From: Roseibaca sp. Y0-43
GTDB lineage: Bacteria > Pseudomonadota > Alphaproteobacteria > Rhodobacterales > Rhodobacteraceae
NCBI RefSeq assembly: GCF_020667835.1
Contig: NZ_JAFMPR010000003.1
Location: 124,001 to 188,000, forward strand
Direction of reading: 5' to 3'
DNA: 64,000 nucleotides
Numbering within the stretch: position 1 is the first letter of the stretch; every line of letters starts with the position of its first letter. Positions 4,993 through 62,693 of the stretch are shown here, one piece after another. The position numbers were made by a program, and so were the translations under genes. The notes under the pieces were generated by a model. That model did not search any database and was not told the DNA's origin. It saw nothing but the letters and a program-made list of their open reading frames with translations.

Positions 4993-5597
4993 GGCCGTTC
5001 ACGGAAAAGACCCTTCTGATCGCCACGCATAACGCGGGCAAGCTGGAAGAGTTTCGCCAGATCATGACGCCCTTAGGGATAACCGTGACCTCTGCGGCAG
5101 AGCACAACCTGCCAGAACCGGAAGAAACCGAAACCACTTTCGTGGGCAACGCCCGGATCAAGGCCCATGCCGCCGCCCGTGCGACCGGCCTGCCCGCGCT
5201 TTCGGACGATTCCGGGCTGGAAGTTATGGCGCTGGGTGGCGCGCCGGGTGTCTATACCGCCGATTGGGCCGAAACCCCGAATGGCCGCGATTTCGTCATG
5301 GCAATGGAGAAGACCCACGCCAAGCTGATCGAGGCGCAGGCGCCGCAGCCATGGCGCGCGCGCTTCTGCTGCACGCTGGTTCTGGCATGGCCAGATGGGC
5401 ATGATGAAGTGGTCGAAGGTCACGCCAATGGCCAACTGGTCTGGCCCCGGCGCGGGCAAGACGGGCATGGCTACGACCCCATGTTCCAGCCTGACGGCGA
5501 GGCCCGAACCTTCGCCGAAATGACGGCGGATGAGAAAAACGCCCTTTCCCACCGCGGCAAAGCCATCGCCGCCCTTATGAAAGCCTGTTTCACATGA
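4989..5597 (+). CDS. rdgB: Non-canonical purine NTP pyrophosphatase (RdgB/HAM1)
   Basis: House-cleaning enzyme that hydrolyses ITP, dITP and XTP to monophosphates, keeping deaminated purines out of nucleic acids. The product is 202 residues. Family motifs visible are [13 protein letters not shown] near the N-terminus, [32 protein letters not shown] and the C-terminal ALSHRGKA. It starts inside the rph stop (ATGA) and its own stop overlaps the ridA start in the same way, so translational coupling along the operon is likely. A parS-like sequence spans its last codons. Confidence 0.96.
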
Positions 5598-5601
5598 AAC
5601 G
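5586..5601. promoter_or_regulatory. parS: Degenerate parS-like site
   Basis: TGTTTCACATGAAACG matches the 16-bp bacterial parS palindrome TGTTTCACGTGAAACA at 14 of 16 positions. It spans the rdgB stop and ridA start, about 4 kb beyond the two perfect sites on the same side of the putative origin. It may be a weak ParB site or a coding coincidence. Confidence 0.4.
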
Positions 5602-5970: not shown

Positions 5971-7125
5971 ATGGACGACTGGCAGAATGGCGGCTTCGGC
6001 CTGTATGTCCATTGGCCGTTTTGCCAAGCGAAGTGCCCCTATTGCGACTTCAACAGCCATGTCAGCGCCCAGGTGGACCAATCCGCCTGGGCGCGCGCCT
6101 ACCTGTCCGAAATTGACCGGATCGCCGCGGAAACCGGCCCGCGCGTGCTGAACACCATCTTTTTCGGCGGCGGCACGCCGTCGCTCATGGACCCCGAACT
6201 TGTCGCCACGATCATCGACCGCGCCCGCGCCCGCTGGCCCGCCGCAAACGATCTGGAGGTGACGCTAGAGGCCAATCCAACCTCTGTCGAAGCAGGACGT
6301 TTCCGGGCCTATGCGGCCGGGGGCGTGAACCGCATTTCCATGGGAATTCAGGCGCTTAACGATGCAGACTTAAAGCGCCTTGGCAGGATGCATTCGCTAT
6401 CCGAGGCCCGCGCGGCGTTTGACATCGCCCGCGCCACGTTCGACCGCGTCAGCTTCGATCTGATCTATGCGCGGCAATACCAAACCCTTGACGACTGGCA
6501 GGCGGAACTGACCGAAGCCCTGTCCATGGCCGTCGACCACCTGTCGCTTTACCAACTGACCATCGAGCCGGGCACCGCCTTTGGTGCCCGCGCCGCGAAG
6601 GGAGGCTTGCACGGTCTGCCCGACGACGACATCGCCGCCGATATGTATCTGGCAACGCAAGAAATTTGCGACCGTCACGGCCTGCCCGCCTACGAGGTGT
6701 CGAACCACGCCCGCCCCGGCGCGCAATCGCGCCACAACCTGATCTATTGGCGCTATGGCGATTACGCAGGTATCGGCCCCGGCGCGCATGGGCGGCTGAC
6801 GCTGAACGGCACCCGCTGGGCCGCGCAGACCCCGCTTATGCCGAACACATGGCTGAACCAGGTCACAACCCAAGGCCATGGCGAAACCCCGCGAGAGGCG
6901 ATTCCGCCCGAGGAACAGGCGCTAGAACACATCATGATGGGGTTGCGACTGGCCGAAGGCCTAGATATGGATCGCTTCGCCCGGCTGAACGGGGCACCCC
7001 TGCCCCAGGCGCGCGTAGACGGTCTGCTATCTCAGGGCTTGGTCACAACCAACGGCCCCCGCCTGACCGCCACCCCCGCCGGGCGCGCAGTGCTGAACGG
7101 CGTTTTGCGCGAATTACTTACCTAG
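5971..7125 (+). CDS. hemW: Radical SAM heme chaperone HemW (HemN-like)
   Basis: Radical S-adenosylmethionine protein of the HemW group, thought to bind heme and deliver it to client proteins; older annotation as coproporphyrinogen III oxidase is common. The 384-residue product has the cluster motif CxxxCxxC as Cys18, Cys22 and Cys25, then TIFFGGGTPSLM, a TLEANPTSVE stretch, and NRISMGIQALND. HemN itself is longer and has an extra N-terminal part, absent here. It is the last gene of the rph operon and overlaps parB by 8 bases tail to tail. Confidence 0.9.
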   Translation: MDDWQNGGFGLYVHWPFCQAKCPYCDFNSHVSAQVDQSAWARAYLSEIDRIAAETGPRVLNTIFFGGGTPSLMDPELVATIIDRARARWPAANDLEVTLEANPTSVEAGRFRAYAAGGVNRISMGIQALNDADLKRLGRMHSLSEARAAFDIARATFDRVSFDLIYARQYQTLDDWQAELTEALSMAVDHLSLYQLTIEPGTAFGARAAKGGLHGLPDDDIAADMYLATQEICDRHGLPAYEVSNHARPGAQSRHNLIYWRYGDYAGIGPGAHGRLTLNGTRWAAQTPLMPNTWLNQVTTQGHGETPREAIPPEEQALEHIMMGLRLAEGLDMDRFARLNGAPLPQARVDGLLSQGLVTTNGPRLTATPAGRAVLNGVLRELLT

Positions 7126-7993
7126 GCGTCCCAAGAATAGAGCACAGCTTGTCCAACTGCTCCATGCTCTTGTAAGCGACCGTGATCCGTCCCTTGCCGC
7201 CACCATCATATTCGATGGACACTTTCATCCCCAAGGCCGCGGACAGGTCATTTTCCAACGCCTGCGTGTCGCTATCCTTGCCCTTGGGGCGCGGCTTCGC
7301 GGTGGCACCTGTCGCGGGCCGCTTCATCAACGCCTCGACCTGCCGCACCGACAGCCCTTCGGCAACAACCTTGCGCGCCAAAGCCCCGGCATCATCGGCC
7401 GTCACCAGCGCGCGCGCATGGCCGGCGCTTAGTTTTCCATCGCGAACAAGGGCTTGCACATCATCCGGCAAGTTCAACAAGCGCAACGCATTGGCGATAT
7501 AGGACCGGCTTTTACCCAGAACCTCTGCCAGTTTTTCCTGCGTGTGGCCAAAGCGTTCGATCAGCGCGCGATAGCCCTGCGCTTCTTCCACCGCGTTCAG
7601 GTCGGCGCGCTGGATATTCTCGATGATCGCGATTTCCAGCACTTCGGTGTCGGTAAACTCGCGCACGACAACCGGCACTTCGTGCAACTGCGCGCGCTGC
7701 GCCGCGCGCCAGCGGCGCTCACCCGCGACGATTTCATAATCCGCGCCCTTGGCACGCACGACCAGCGGCTGGATCACACCCTTTTCGCGGATGGATGCGG
7801 CCAGCTCCGCCAGTGCCGTCTCGTCGAAATGGCGGCGCGGCTGATCCGGGTTCGGCACCAGCTTTTCAACCGGCAGTTTCACGATCGGCCCTTTTGGTGC
7901 GGCATCGCTCTGCTGCTCGATAGCCACATCTGCCATCAGGGCCGACAGGCCACGCCCCAAACCGCCGCGCTTTTCAGGCTTCCGCTCGCTCAT
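7118..7993 (-). CDS. parB: Chromosome partitioning protein ParB
   Basis: CTP-dependent clamp that loads on parS and organises the origin region for segregation. The product is 291 residues. The N-terminal KRGGLGRGLSALM peptide (the ParA-stimulating arm) is followed by the nuclease-like domain with QPRRHFDE, the GERRWRAAQ CTP-binding motif, the ENIQRADLNAVEEAQGY box, a helix-turn-helix (EKLAEVLGKSRSYIANALRL) and a C-terminal dimerisation domain. It overlaps parA by 4 bases and is the last gene of the hemJ-parB operon. Perfect parS sites lie 1.4 and 3.3 kb upstream. Confidence 0.97.
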   Translation of the reverse strand: MSERKPEKRGGLGRGLSALMADVAIEQQSDAAPKGPIVKLPVEKLVPNPDQPRRHFDETALAELAASIREKGVIQPLVVRAKGADYEIVAGERRWRAAQRAQLHEVPVVVREFTDTEVLEIAIIENIQRADLNAVEEAQGYRALIERFGHTQEKLAEVLGKSRSYIANALRLLNLPDDVQALVRDGKLSAGHARALVTADDAGALARKVVAEGLSVRQVEALMKRPATGATAKPRPKGKDSDTQALENDLSAALGMKVSIEYDGGGKGRITVAYKSMEQLDKLCSILGTPR

Positions 7994-8805
7994 GACGCCG
8001 CCCTTTCCGTGTGCTTCTTGCCATGTTTGGCCATCAATTCCGCCGCCAGATCCCGATAGGCCACCGCTCCTTTCGACTGCGAATCGTATTGCAGCACGGG
8101 CACGGCATAAGACGGCGCTTCCGACACGCGCACATTGCGCGGGATCACCGTCTGGAACACCAGATCGCCCAGGTTGTCACGCGCATCCGCCTCTACCTGC
8201 TGCGCAAGGTTGTTACGGCGGTCATACATGGTCAGCAAAATGCCCTCTATCCGCAGGCCCGGATTGGCGGTTTCGCGCAATTCACGGATGGACAGCATCA
8301 GTTGCGACAACCCTTCCAGCGCGAAGAACTCTGCCTGCAACGGCACCAGAACCGAATGCGCCGCGACCATGGCATTCACCGTCAGCAGGTTCAGCGACGG
8401 GGGGCAATCAATCAGGATGTAGTCGAACCCGGCCTGCATGATCGCGGGCTGGCGCAGCGCGTCTTGCAACAGGTAAGTGCGGCGCGCGCGCGACATCAGC
8501 TCTATATCAGCAGAGGACAGATCCGTCGTTGCCGGCACAACCCATAGCGACGATTCGCCCACTTGCCGCATGATGTCGGTCGCAGGCGCATCACCAAACA
8601 CCAGGTCATAGGTCGTGTGCTTGCGCGATTTCGTATCAATCCCCAGCCCGGTAGAGGCGTTGCCCTGCGGGTCGATGTCGATCAGCAGCGTCTTGTTGCC
8701 CTGCTCTGCCAAGGCTGCGGCCAAATTGATCGCGGTCGTGGTTTTGCCCACCCCGCCCTTTTGGTTCGCAACGGCAATAACCCGTGTTTTCGTCAAGCTA
8801 GACAC
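7990..8805 (-). CDS. parA: Chromosome partitioning ATPase ParA
   Basis: Walker-type ATPase that forms the gradient on the nucleoid along which ParB-parS complexes move. The 271 residues contain the deviant Walker A KGGVGKTT (about residues 16-23), the DIDPQGNAS Walker A' region and the ILIDCPPSLN Walker B motif. There is no N-terminal DNA-binding domain, as expected for chromosomal ParA (Soj). The start is a GTG at 8805 overlapping the rsmG stop, with AAGGAA 7 bases upstream. Confidence 0.97.
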   Translation of the reverse strand: MSSLTKTRVIAVANQKGGVGKTTTAINLAAALAEQGNKTLLIDIDPQGNASTGLGIDTKSRKHTTYDLVFGDAPATDIMRQVGESSLWVVPATTDLSSADIELMSRARRTYLLQDALRQPAIMQAGFDYILIDCPPSLNLLTVNAMVAAHSVLVPLQAEFFALEGLSQLMLSIRELRETANPGLRIEGILLTMYDRRNNLAQQVEADARDNLGDLVFQTVIPRNVRVSEAPSYAVPVLQYDSQSKGAVAYRDLAAELMAKHGKKHTERAAS

Positions 8806-9412
8806 GTTTGATTTCCTTCAAGGCCAAGATGCGGGCAGAGGCGTCCGTCATGCTGGGATGGACCGCCAGATCAAATTGCCACTCAGCGCGGGCTGCTTCA
8901 AGCTCTGCTTCATAAGATTTCCCTTTCGGCAAAAGCGCCACACCCTCTGGGTGCAGATGGCGCGCGACCATGGGCAAAAGCTGGGCCAAGGGGGCAAGCG
9001 CGCGAGCCGACACGGTGTCGGCATTGGCCGGGGTCAAAGCTTCGGCGCGGACGGGTTGAACCGTCATGTTCAGGCCCAGCTCTTGCTTGCAAACGGCCAG
9101 AAACGCCGCCTTGCGCTTGTCGCTTTCGACAAGGGTAAAGCGGGCATCGGGCGCTAGCTCCTTCGCTAGGACAGCGCAAACCACACCAGGCAATCCGCCG
9201 CCGGAACCAAGGTCAACCCAGTGGCGCACGGGCTGTTCACGCAGCGCAAAGACCTGCGCCGAATCGAGGATATGGCGTTCCCACAGATCGGCAAGGGTCG
9301 AGGGCGACACAAGGTTAATGCGGGGATTCCATTTGCGCAGAAGCGACTCGAACTTCTGAAGCGACTCGAATGTTTCACGTGAAACATCCAGCACAGTAAT
9401 ACGCTCGGTCAT
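8798..9412 (-). CDS. rsmG: 16S rRNA (guanine-N7) methyltransferase RsmG
   Basis: Methylates G527 in the 530 loop of 16S rRNA using S-adenosylmethionine; loss gives low-level streptomycin resistance in other bacteria. The product is 204 residues. The SAM-binding loop [11 protein letters not shown] lies near residues 66-76, preceded by [11 protein letters not shown] and the [10 protein letters not shown] motif. Codons 9-14 (V-S-R-E-T-F) are read from a perfect parS palindrome. It is coupled to mnmG upstream by an ATGA overlap, the order seen around alphaproteobacterial origins. Confidence 0.96.
9371..9386. promoter_or_regulatory. parS: parS centromere site 1
   Basis: TGTTTCACGTGAAACA, a perfect 16-bp palindrome identical to the consensus chromosomal parS. 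It lies within codons 9-14 of rsmG, about 5 kb from the putative oriC and 1.4 kb upstream of parB. Confidence 0.93.
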
Positions 9413-11280
9413 GCCTGCGCACGCTTATCCTGCTTTTGCAGGCGCGCGAGGATCAGCACCAAGGCCGCTGGCGTCATCCCCTCTATCCGCGCCGCTTGCG
9501 CCATGGTTTTCGGCTGCGCTGCCGCCAGTTTCGTAGCCAATTCGCGCGACAAACCGCTGATCGCACTGTAATCCAAACCCGCTGGAATTGCCTTTGCCTC
9601 ATCCGCCCGAAGCGCGGCAATCTGGCTTTCCTGCCGCCGCAGATACGCTGCATAAACCATTTCTTTGGAAAGCTGCGTTTTGATCGCGTCGGGTATCTCG
9701 GCAAAAGGCGGATGAAGGGTTTCCAGAACATCAAAGCCGAACCCGGTCAGGCCCAACAGCTCCAACCCATCGCGGCGCGTGCCGTCTTCGCTGATCTTGT
9801 GGCCCGCCGCTTGCAATTGCGCAGGCGTGAAGGTTTGGCTTCGCAGCGACGAGCGGGCGGCGTCAAGCGCGTTAACCTTGCTTTCGAACGCGTCCCGGCG
9901 CTCTTCCCCAACACACCCCCAGTCCAGACCCAAAGGCGTCAGGCGTTGGTCAGCGTTGTCGGCGCGCAGCGACAGGCGGTATTCGGCCCGAGAGGTGAAC
10001 ATGCGATACGGCTCTGACACACCGCGCGCAGTCAGATCGTCAATCATGACGCCGATATAGCTGTCGGATCGGCTAAAGCTGACCGGGCCTTCATCTGCCG
10101 CGAAACGCGCAGCGTTCAGGCCAGCGACCAGACCTTGCGCGCCCGCCTCCTCGTAACCCGTGGTGCCGTTGATCTGCCCGGCCAGGTAAAAGCCTTTCAG
10201 TGCAGATAGTTGCAGCGACAGGTCCAGCGCGCGCGGGTCGATGTAATCGTATTCGATCGCATAACCGGGCTGAGTGATTTCAACCTGCTCCAACCCGCGA
10301 ATGGTGCGGACATAGGCCTCTTGCACCTCTGCCGGCAAAGAGGTCGAGATACCATTCGGATAGACGATGTCATCGTCCAGCCCTTCGGGTTCCAAGAAAA
10401 CCTGGTGCGACTCCTTATCGGCGAACCGGCTGATCTTGTCCTCGATCGACGGGCAATAGCGCGGCCCGACACCTTCGATCTGGCCGCTATACATGGCCGA
10501 ACGGTCAAGATTCGCGCGCACAATTTCATGCGTCTCAGTGTTGGTGTGCGTGATAGCGCAAGAGACTTGCGGCGCGATGGTGCGATCGGTCAGGAAGGAC
10601 ATGTATTCTGGCGCATCATCGCCCGGTTGCTGTTCCAACGCGTCCCAGTCGATGCTGCTGCGCCGCAAGCGCGGGGGCGTGCCGGTTTTCAGCCGACCCA
10701 TGGGCAACCCTAGCCCGCGCAATTGTTGTGCCAGAATGGTAGAGGCCGCGTTGCCCATGCGCCCGGCGGGGAAAGTTTTATCGCCGATGAAGACCTTGCC
10801 ACCAAGGAAGGTTCCGGTCGTCAGCACCACGGCACGGGCCGAAAGCGTTGCATCCCCTGCGATCCGAACGCCGGTGACACGGTCGCCGGTGATGACAAGC
10901 GCGGTCACTTCAGCCTCTATCACCTGAACATTCGGGGCACTATCGACAACCCGAGAGATCGCCGCACGATAGCGGGCGCGGTCCGCTTGCACGCGCGGGC
11001 CTTGCACGGCTGGCCCTTTGGAGCGGTTCAGCAACCGATATTGAATTGCAGCATAGTCAGATGCGCGGCCCATCGCGCCATCAAGCGCGTCAATCTCGCG
11101 CACAAGGTGGCCTTTGCCCAAGCCACCGAAGGCGGGGTTGCAGGACATGACACCAAGGTCATCTTTGCGAAACGTCACCAGAGCGGTTTTAGCCCCCATG
11201 CGACCTGCTGCGAGTGCGGCTTCTACACCGGCATGGCCACCGCCAACGACGATTACATCGAATTGTTTCACGTGAAACAC
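9409..11280 (-). CDS. mnmG: tRNA uridine 5-carboxymethylaminomethyl modification enzyme MnmG (GidA)
   Basis: FAD-dependent subunit that works with MnmE to install the cmnm5 group on wobble U34 of several tRNAs. The product is 623 residues. The N-terminal FAD-binding GGGHAG motif lies at residues 13-18, with the [15 protein letters not shown] and GRMGNAAS family motifs and [12 protein letters not shown] further on. The start is the GTG at 11280; the first codons (M-F-H-V-K-Q) are read from a perfect parS site. It lies 2 bases after mnmE. Confidence 0.97.
11264..11279. promoter_or_regulatory. parS: parS centromere site 2
   Basis: A second perfect TGTTTCACGTGAAACA. It begins within the GTG start codon of mnmG and covers codons 1-6, about 3.2 kb from the putative origin. 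Any ParB bound here would sit on the mnmG translation start region of the DNA. Confidence 0.93.
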
Positions 11281-11282
11281 TC

Positions 11283-12569
11283 CTACTTGCCGATGCAGAA
11301 ACTGCTGAAAATATCGCCCAGAACGTCTTCCACATCTACCACACCGATCAGCGAATCGAGGGCTGTCATCGCGGTGCGAATATCTGCGGCTACAAGTTCG
11401 GCGATATAGTCATCTTGGCTGATTTTATCAATCGCGTCACTCAAGGCGGCTTCGGCCTGTTGCATTGCTTGCGCATGACGTTGACGGATCGTGACACCAT
11501 CGCGCGCTGTCATGGCGGACAGGCGAGAGGTGATTTCATCCAGCAGCCAATCCAAACCCTGCCCGGTCACGACAGAGATGCCGCCATCACCGCCCTGCCC
11601 CAGATCGGCCTTGCTTCGGACCACAATATCCTGTGGTCCAGCTTCAATACCTGTCGATATATCGTTCACAGGCTGCAAGATGATCCGCAAATCCGCCTGC
11701 TCTGCCCGCGCCTTGCCGCGCGCGATACCGATGGCTTCGACCTGCTCCGCCATGTCACGCAAGCCTGCGGTGTCCAGAAAGGTTACGGCATAGCCACCCA
11801 CATCCATGCGCACTTCCAGCACGTCGCGCGTTGTGCCCGCAATGTCAGAGGTGATCGCTGCTTCGCGTCCGGCAAGTGCGTTCAGCAGGCTGGATTTGCC
11901 CGCGTTGACGGGGCCGACAAGCGCCACTTCGAACCCGGTCTGAACGCGTTCGCGCGCACGCTGGCCCGCAAGTTCGGCGCGAAGGCCCGACTGCACGGCG
12001 CGCAGTTCATCCAGGATCATGTCGTCGAAATTGCCGACATCTTCCTCGACGAAATCAATCGCGGTTTCGACCAATGCCGCAGCCTTGATCAGATGCGCGC
12101 GCCACTGGGCGACAACCTTGCCGATGGCGCCATCCAGCACGCGCAGGGCTTGGCGGCGTTGGCTTTCGGTTTCAGCTTCCAGAAGGTCGCTGAGTGCTTC
12201 GACCTGGGTCAGGTCCATCTGGCCGTTATCCAGCGCGCGGCGGGTGAATTCGCCCGGCTGCGCCATGCGCAAGCCGTGGTCTTGGGCCAGACAGCGCTCT
12301 ATGGCAGCGACGGTCGCAAGGCTGCCATGAACCATCAGCTCTGCCACATCCTCACCCGTGAAGCTGGCCCCTTGCGCGAAACATAGCACGAGCGCAGAAT
12401 CCAGCCGCTCCCCCGCCCCATCGCGCAACATGCGCAACCCAGCTTCTCGCATGGGTGGCAGGCTGCCCGCCATGGCGCGCGCCACGGCATGCGCGCGCGG
12501 GCCAGAGATGCGGATAACAGCGACGCCCGATTTTCCACGGGCCGAGGCCAGTGCGAAAATAGTGTCCAT
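11283..12569 (-). CDS. mnmE: tRNA modification GTPase MnmE (TrmE)
   Basis: GTPase partner of MnmG in cmnm5-U34 modification; needs potassium and GTP hydrolysis. The product is 428 residues. Motifs: N-terminal folate-binding domain ([20 protein letters not shown]), [21 protein letters not shown]1 loop GPVNAGKSS, the switch [11 protein letters not shown]3 DTAGL, and the invariant C-terminal FCIGK with the catalytic cysteine. It lies 4 bases after rho and 2 before mnmG, so all are probably cotranscribed. Confidence 0.97.
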
Positions 12570-14429: not shown

Positions 14430-14803
14430 GATCGGTCCCTTCCCGGCTTTCTATAAATAAAGAAAAGAAAAAAGAAAATGATGATGTAGATAGGGGCTGT
14501 GGATATGGGGATTATTGGATTCTGCACAATTTTATCCACAGGGCTTCGTGTCGCGCGTTAGGAATTTTCACGGAGTTTTACTCATGTTTTCAATGGCATA
14601 AATTGGACCAAAAATAGAACATTAACCAAGATGAAGCTGCGTTAGGGAATTGTCCACATCGCGCCTTGGCCATTGCTCACAACGGGAAAACTGCCCTCGG
14701 GAACTTGCAAGCCATGTGGGAAAGTGGCAGCACCGGGTGAACGCTGGGGAGAAGGGCTGTTTCCTCCCGGTGTTATGGGTCTTTTGCTCACAAGGATATC
14801 CAC
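14430..14803. other. oriC: Putative chromosomal replication origin (oriC)
   Basis: 374 bases without a gene, between divergent hemJ and maf. An AT-rich, purine-rich tract (about 14451-14490) lies at the left. DnaA boxes: a perfect TTATCCACA at 14532-14540; one-mismatch boxes at 14498-14506 (minus, ATATCCACA), 14650-14658 (TTGTCCACA) and 14796-14804 (ATATCCACA, ending on the A of the maf start); a two-mismatch box at 14715-14723 (minus). A TTAACC sequence near 14622 resembles a CtrA half-site. Genes on both sides run outward, as for leading-strand genes. In Caulobacter the origin lies close to the same maf-aroE-coaE-dnaQ block. The promoters of hemJ and maf must also lie here. Confidence 0.85.
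14532..14540 (+). promoter_or_regulatory. Perfect DnaA box
   Basis: TTATCCACA, identical to the high-affinity DnaA box consensus, 26 bases from a one-mismatch box on the opposite strand (14498-14506) and close to the AT-rich tract that would unwind. Confidence 0.85.
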
Positions 14804-15394
14804 ATGGCGCTTGTTCTGGCATCGGCCTCTACCATCCGGGCAGAGATGTTGCGCCGCGCGGGTGTCATGGTCGACGTGCAGCCCGCCCGCATAGACGAAG
14901 CCGCGATCCGCGACGCGCTGCTGGCCGAAGATGCGCCGCCCCGCGATGTGGCCGATGCCTTGGCAGAGGGAAAGGCGCGCAAGATATCGGCCCGCCAGCC
15001 CGGTCTGGTTCTGGGCTGCGATCAGGTTCTGGCGCTGAAGGGCCGTTTGTTCGAAAAACCCACCACGCCAGAGCAGGCTCGCGACCATCTGACCGCGTTA
15101 CGGGGACAGACGCATCAGCTTTTGTCGGCGGCGGTTCTGTATGATGACGGCAAACCCGTCTGGCGGCATGTGGGTGTGGCGCGACTGACGATGCGCAATT
15201 TCTCGGACAGCTATCTGGATGACTATATCGCCCGCAACTGGCCCGGCATTGGCGAGTCGGTCGGCGCTTACAAGCTGGAAGAAGAAGGGGTGCGGTTGTT
15301 CGCGCAGGTGACGGGCGACTATTTCACCATTCTTGGCCTGCCGATGCTGGAGCTTTTGAACTACCTCAGCCTGCGTGGGGAGATTGCGGGATGA
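14804..15394 (+). CDS. maf: Maf-like nucleotide pyrophosphatase
   Basis: Maf/HAM1-fold nucleoside triphosphate pyrophosphatase, acting on dTTP, UTP or modified nucleotides; which one cannot be told from sequence. The product is 196 residues. It has the N-terminal LASASTIRAEMLRRAG motif, the catalytic VLGCDQVL stretch and the SVGAYKLEEEG motif. It is the first gene to the right of the putative origin and overlaps aroE by ATGA. Confidence 0.93.
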   Translation: MALVLASASTIRAEMLRRAGVMVDVQPARIDEAAIRDALLAEDAPPRDVADALAEGKARKISARQPGLVLGCDQVLALKGRLFEKPTTPEQARDHLTALRGQTHQLLSAAVLYDDGKPVWRHVGVARLTMRNFSDSYLDDYIARNWPGIGESVGAYKLEEEGVRLFAQVTGDYFTILGLPMLELLNYLSLRGEIAG

Positions 15395-62312: not shown

Positions 62313-62325
62313 CGGTCTGGAAGTG

Positions 62326-62359
62326 ATAAGGCCCTGGCCGTTTCCGGTCAGGGCCTTAT
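62326..62359. terminator. Strong hairpin between convergent genes
   Basis: ATAAGGCCCTG (62326-62336) and CAGGGCCTTAT (62349-62359) pair perfectly, extended inward by one G-T and two G-C pairs, around a short loop. The 14-bp stem has no T tract on either strand. It probably marks the 3' end of the UPF0434 operon and of the small minus-strand ORF. Confidence 0.6.
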
Positions 62360-62382
62360 GAGTAGAAACCGCGCGGCGGTGT

Positions 62383-62520
62383 TCAGGCGACGCGCTTGGA
62401 GATCGGGCGACCAGCCAACACCTTCTGGCCGACCCGAATAACGATCATCCCGTTTCCCAACCGTTTCACAATCGGCCCCTGGGCCTGGATGTGTTTCCCG
62501 ATGCGGATGGTGGCGAGCAT
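62383..62520 (-). CDS. Hypothetical 45-residue basic protein
   Basis: A short ORF (ATG at 62520, stop at 62383) whose product begins MLATIRIGKHIQAQGPIVKR and ends AGRPISKRVA. It is basic, without cysteine, and has an alternating pattern (IRIGKHI, MIVIRVGQKV) that suggests beta strands. A weak GGGG precedes the start by about 7 bases. It fills the gap between the UPF0434 hairpin and mutT. I do not recognise it; it could be a real small gene or a chance frame. Confidence 0.45.
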   Translation of the reverse strand: MLATIRIGKHIQAQGPIVKRLGNGMIVIRVGQKVLAGRPISKRVA

Positions 62521-62693
62521 GATTAACCCCGTGTGATTGAGCCAAGACTACCAATCCTTCGGCTCAAACCAAGCGTGCAAAGCCCGTTTCTGACAAATTC
62601 GTGCCACTTTATCATGGCAGGCGGGCAGGCATTGACGCGAATTTGGATCAATCCTTCTCAACTGGTGGTATTGTTTCCACCAGCTGCGCAAAA
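62521..62693. other. Intergenic region upstream of the small ORF, after mutT
   Basis: 173 bases of relatively AT-rich sequence. It holds a 7-bp inverted repeat CTGGTGG (62662-62668) / CCACCAG (62677-62683), just past the mutT stop on the minus strand, without a T tract, and a TGAGCC...GGCTCA repeat near 62538-62566. These may be the mutT transcript end and part of a promoter region for the small ORF. Confidence 0.35.

Follow-up and report, generated by a model that had tools for sequence, protein, structure and literature searches.

The DNA analyzed here is a window of 64 kb (positions 124001 to 188000 of contig C33) from the genome of a Rhodobacteraceae bacterium, the family to which the nearest named relatives belong; its assembly consists of 54 unordered contigs. 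In the window, hemJ (UPF0093, Pfam PF03653; 13992 to 14429, minus strand) and maf (assigned from Pfam PF02545 and its neighbors; 14804 to 15394, plus strand) are separated by a gap of 374 bases (14430 to 14803). The genes rho, mnmE, mnmG, rsmG, parA, and parB read leftward on the left of the gap, and on its right maf heads the rightward block maf-aroE-coaE-dnaQ. By Pfam, parB and parA occupy 7118 to 8805 (minus strand). Two perfect palindromic parS sites (9371 to 9386 and 11264 to 11279) lie 3-5 kb from the gap, and the genome has no other match to TGTTNCNCGTGNAACA. A sequence-only reading had taken the gap for the probable chromosomal origin and had cited outward transcription on both sides as well as nearby parS sites and parAB, and these observations hold.

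Other features of the window were also recorded. A third parS-like site with two mismatches (5586 to 5601) is found about 1.5 kb from parB. The stretch 62313 to 62693, ahead of a NUDIX gene, spans about 380 bases with only ORFs shorter than 75 aa and matches the hemJ-maf gap in length, so that the description of the gap as the longest gene-free stretch could not be confirmed. Rfam matches were obtained for SorX (singlet oxygen resistance RNA X, RF02784; 50985 to 51062, plus strand), directly after a response-regulator gene, and for 5' ureB sRNA (RF02514; 1 to 183, plus strand), which is cut by the window edge. Because a urease accessory gene lies nearby (1563 to 2393), the latter match may stem from a urease coding region and not from an RNA gene.

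DnaA boxes and GC skew at the hemJ-maf gap

We scanned the gap for DnaA boxes. One perfect box, TTATCCACA, is located at 14532 to 14540 on the plus strand. Three boxes carry one mismatch: ATATCCACA at 14498 to 14506 (minus strand), TTGTCCACA at 14650 to 14658 (plus strand), and a second copy of ATATCCACA at the right end (14796 to 14804, plus strand). The perfect box and the three one-mismatch boxes agree with the sequence-only reading, which had counted a single box with two mismatches; the gap in fact holds five of these, at 14485, 14506, 14520, 14715, and 14745. Among them, TAATCCCCA (14506 to 14514, minus strand) is replaced by TAATCCACA in many relatives, and TTCTGCACA (14520 to 14528, plus strand) stands 12 bp ahead of the perfect box. 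Since the whole window contains 94 boxes at two mismatches or fewer against 73.9 expected, single weak boxes carry little meaning. The extent of 14430 to 14803 given in that reading is right for the gap itself, but the rightmost box overruns it by one base, into maf.

The cluster of stronger boxes clearly exceeds chance. The gap together with the maf ATG (377 bases) holds four boxes with at most one mismatch, compared with 0.145 in shuffled sequences, and none of 200 shuffles reached four. It is also the sole 400-bp stretch with at least three such boxes in the 351,145-bp contig, and the 3.03-Mb genome has only seven perfect boxes. That the gap has no more than four boxes at this threshold counts against an origin, as does the degradation in the window of a mid-gap box that is frequent in aligned relatives.

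An A-rich tract at 14448 to 14476 (plus strand), which from its AT content and its place in the family-wide element described below is probably the duplex-unwinding region, lies at the left end. The AT-rich tract previously marked at 14451 to 14490 is indeed 80% AT, whereas the window as a whole has 36.5%. AT content peaks at 82.5%, in 40-mers that start at 14448 to 14453, and one other place in the window, 31819, reaches 80%. The region thus qualifies by its AT-richness, and unwinding itself is putative.

Cumulative GC skew and the presence of the boxes in relatives had been named as checks of the origin assignment, and both, as far as they could be carried out, came out in its favor. Over the whole contig, cumulative skew is lowest at window position 12448, which is 2.0 kb away from the gap. 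Skew averages −0.022 on the left side of the gap and +0.019 on its right side; in 10-kb bins it is negative for 11 of 13 to the left and positive for 19 of 21 to the right. Skew was also measured in four relatives with single-contig genomes, using 20 or 21 sampled 20-kb stretches per genome, mostly about 5-7% of the chromosome apart and closer together near maf in G079 and G100. The sampled minimum fell 0.0%, 5.6%, 6.8%, and 9.4% of the chromosome away from maf in G100, G116, G079, and G048, respectively, and the maximum 49.9%, 49.5%, 43.1%, and 49.5% away. Given this coarse spacing, the relatives' skew agrees with an origin at maf but is sharp in G100 only; the minima lying 5.6-9.4% off maf in the other three count against the assignment to the extent that such sampling allows. 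In G079 the sampled skew has no sharp minimum. The hemJ-maf gap of this genome (L085) is widened to 1415 bp and its score for the left element described below is low (6.3), which also counts against the assignment; it is possible that the origin of G079 is rearranged.

To place the gap among its relatives, we compared 38 loci found in a Maf-relative scan, from which a Clostridium locus (L038) was excluded throughout. The order rho, (hemJ), maf, and downstream genes is kept in the remaining 37 loci as far as the contigs reach, although AroE found no match in L030; hemJ stands between rho and maf in 30 of them and is missing there from L005, L006, L007, L009, L015, L020, and L033. Boxes with at most one mismatch were counted in 48 gaps, namely those of the 37 loci, the window, nine further genomes, and G100, omitting L055 (same genome as L069) and L085. 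These gaps hold 159 boxes, compared with 6.1 in shuffles; at least one occurs in 48 of 48, at least two in 46, and at least three in 33.

Taken together, the region 14430 to 14803 is almost certainly the replication origin (oriC) of the main chromosome, as predicted from the clustered boxes, the AT-rich tract, the reversal of both skew and gene direction, the adjoining ParABS system, and conservation across the family. The genome's DnaA, in addition, carries the usual N-terminal, ATPase, and DNA-binding domains (PF11638, PF00308, and PF08299). Two other locations were weighed. The boxes might instead belong to a DnaA-controlled divergent hemJ/maf promoter, with the true origin elsewhere, for example near dnaA; one box does sit on the maf start codon, and the divergent genes suggest that the gap holds both promoters. 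Yet the skew turns at the gap, and the 40 kb around dnaA, which sits on a different contig (C11), show neither a skew change nor a box cluster. The left element, moreover, persists in eight of nine loci without hemJ between rho and maf, and we consider this explanation very unlikely. An origin close by but outside the gap, for example in mnmE/rho, is less probable still and can practically be dismissed: the exact skew minimum falls there, but 2 kb probably lies within the noise of the skew curve, the stretch is coding and lacks a cluster of boxes with at most one mismatch, and it is the gap's boxes that recur family-wide.

A conserved element beside the A-rich tract

The A-rich tract is followed by AATGATGATGTAGATAGGGG (14477 to 14496, plus strand), which has a RATGATG-like core and a G-rich end and precedes the first minus-strand box. 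It was recognized from the alignment and a leave-one-out profile and is one of the most highly conserved parts of the gap in the family. The family consensus for this interval is approximately AAGATGATG followed by GTAGGG, and the interval is conserved at least as well as the boxes. The order of the left element is thus A-rich tract, RATGATG-like core, GTAGGG, and minus-strand box.

We examined this element in 109 family regions. The 60 further genera added for this purpose represent 60 of 199 genomes, mostly the best Maf matches among those listed, so the family counts lean to closer relatives. Some loci and genomes come from one species or from sister species, and filtering by k-mers reduced the 109 regions to just 103; L055 was dropped from the counts of the left element and of the start-codon box as well. 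Of the 109 regions, 65 contain an exact RATGATG within their last 600 bp, compared with 8.1 expected; 59 matches lie at −400 to −315, and a few are far upstream, probably within hemJ. A 46-column profile exceeded all but the highest shuffled control in 107 of 109 regions, versus 2 of 109 on the reverse strand. In its leave-one-out form, which still holds relatives of the region left out, it outscored all shuffled controls in 100 of the 103 regions kept as non-redundant, failing in G050, G014, and L074. The absence of the element upstream of maf in the family members G050 and G014 counts against the origin assignment, and in these two genomes maf or the origin may have moved. Their loci (L175 in G014 and L171 in G050) also have no start-codon box at two mismatches or fewer.

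In 62 of 103 regions the element is followed by a minus-strand box at one mismatch or fewer; 41 regions have none. Relative to hemJ, the core is positioned about 48-67 bp upstream of the start, where a promoter could lie, and the gap could therefore be oriC with a left element that is the hemJ promoter rather than an unwinding element. Against this, the distance from element to minus-strand box is confined to 16-32 bp and is 20-21 or 29-30 bp in 51 of the 62 regions, which suggests two tandem box positions. The retention of the element in eight of the nine loci lacking an adjoining hemJ (gaps of 501-529 bp) likewise argues against a mere hemJ promoter: L009 has the exact word, the others score 14.3-33.0, and L074 fails at 0.7. 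We regard a promoter role in place of unwinding as unlikely, and favor an opening element.

Outside the family, we scored the 30 best-scoring loci of 80 genomes with COG1806, among 115 searched. The best of these alphaproteobacterial outgroup genomes scored 21.3 and the rest at most 10.1, versus a family median of 33.8; with both strands scanned, 15 of 30 scored above the top family shuffle, 2.3. An element that is related but less specific may therefore exist outside the family.

The arrangement resembles the basal unwinding system (BUS) of Bacillus subtilis type in its order of AT-rich tract, triplets, G-rich spacer, and DnaA box. In the relevant passages of PMC8287927 and PMC10316083, the BUS has 5'-TAG-3'-type triplets, a GC-rich spacer, and a DnaA box, and a relaxed pattern needs three or more A-centered triplets and a spacer no longer than 16 nt. 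The window has ten consecutive triplets of this relaxed type (.A.) and a spacer of 12 nt, a match that is weakly specific in an A-rich tract. A DnaA-trio in the strict TAG sense was looked for in the window and not found: unlike the published triplets, those adjoining the spacer are 5'-GAT-3'. Across relatives, A frequencies in the three phases are 0.686, 0.691, and 0.675, as in an A tract without a 3-nt phase. Because of the GAT triplets and the lack of phase, we term the left element BUS-like, a putative assignment made from sequence.

A DnaA box fused to the maf start codon

The rightmost box (ATATCCACA, 14796 to 14804), seen in the box scan and in relatives, is fused to maf: its final A, one base past the gap end, is the A of the maf ATG. 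It fills the spacer between AAGGA (14792 to 14796) and ATG (14804 to 14806). An in-frame ATG-fused box is present in 33 of the 60 genera at one mismatch or fewer and in 37 at two or fewer. When reading frame is ignored, 62 of 103 non-redundant regions have a fused box with at most one mismatch, versus none of 515 control stretches taken 700-1003 bp upstream of maf, which are mostly coding. None of the 30 outgroup genomes with COG1806 has a start-codon-fused box at this threshold; in 15 of them a plus-strand box stands 25-75 bp ahead of the COG1806 domain match. An old right-end box may thus have landed on the maf start when COG1806 left that place.

Based on this anatomy, we propose how the origin might work. 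DnaA-ATP would bind the perfect box at 14532 and its neighbors, and the DnaA oligomer would grow towards the minus-strand boxes at 14498-14514. The duplex would then be opened through the GATGATG/GTAGATAGGGG core and on into the A-rich tract at 14448-14476, where the helicase would be loaded, and two forks would depart, one through hemJ-rho-parAB and the other through maf-dnaQ. Only the relatives point to an IHF bend, which would lie between the left boxes and the middle ones. DnaA bound at the right-hand box would sit over the stretch that separates the ribosome-binding site of maf from its start codon; it may, in addition, block maf operon transcription or set its timing.

Relation to known origins

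The Caulobacter origin is not beside dnaA; the maf-aroE-coaE-dnaQ block presumably lies next to it, as stated in the sequence-only reading. The gap resembles this origin, Cori, in its AT-rich tract, its DnaA boxes, and its position away from dnaA, here on another contig. A further possible likeness, the IHF position, is suggested for the window by the relatives only. At 14588 to 14600 (plus strand) we read a degenerate IHF-like sequence, TTTCAATGGCATA, with two mismatches to WATCAANNNNTTR, which we take to be the IHF motif; the aligned family consensus at this position is TCAANNNNTTA. Among the 109 family regions, 65 have IHF-like sites at one mismatch or fewer, compared with 33.4 expected, and these sites cluster about 220-280 bp before maf; the window has none, and this degraded position counts against the assignment. 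As to flanks and CtrA, Caulobacter crescentus Cori is flanked by hemE and COG1806 and contains five CtrA sites according to the relevant part of PMC1914354, and the window differs in having neither these flanks nor such sites. hemE is on another contig than the gap, and COG1806 found no match in this genome or in one other family member among the genomes listed. The CtrA site TTAA-N7-TTAA at one mismatch or fewer was absent from the 64-kb window, compared with 2.07 expected by chance, and 10 of 109 family regions carry full CtrA sites within their last 400 bp.

The gap fits the predicted origins of its own family (DoriC/Ori-Finder) closely. These lie directly upstream of maf, as in the window, with parAB close by. 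PMC4793288, in the passage concerned, places the predicted oriC of Ketogulonicigenium vulgare next to maf and cites DoriC for conservation in Rhodobacteraceae, and PMC6699656, likewise in part, assigns oriC in 101 family chromosomes from boxes, skew, and parAB, all of which the window shares. The passages of both papers indicate no difference in principle and do not give the internal anatomy. Because they already place or assign Rhodobacteraceae oriC, our finding is correct and ordinary, and the location beside maf is not new. What the comparison adds is the start-codon-fused DnaA box and the family-wide left motif beside the probable opening site. We found neither described for Rhodobacteraceae in the openly accessible papers searched, most of which were covered at the level of listings.

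A more speculative reading, less likely than not, is that Rhodobacteraceae origins combine two features. One would be a lineage-typical opening element that replaces TAG DnaA-trios and is made of the A-rich tract, GATGATG-type triplets, GTAGGG, and then minus-strand DnaA boxes in tandem. The other would be a coupling of initiation to maf-aroE-coaE-dnaQ expression through the maf-start DnaA box, which fills the space between the ribosome-binding site and the start codon.

For this organism, the analysis narrows the origin of a draft genome to 374 bp. For the family, the shared anatomy bears on which bases DnaA opens where few origins have a full CtrA site, and on whether DnaA controls the first gene of the right arm. 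The left-element profile could also flag origins in draft Rhodobacteraceae genomes.
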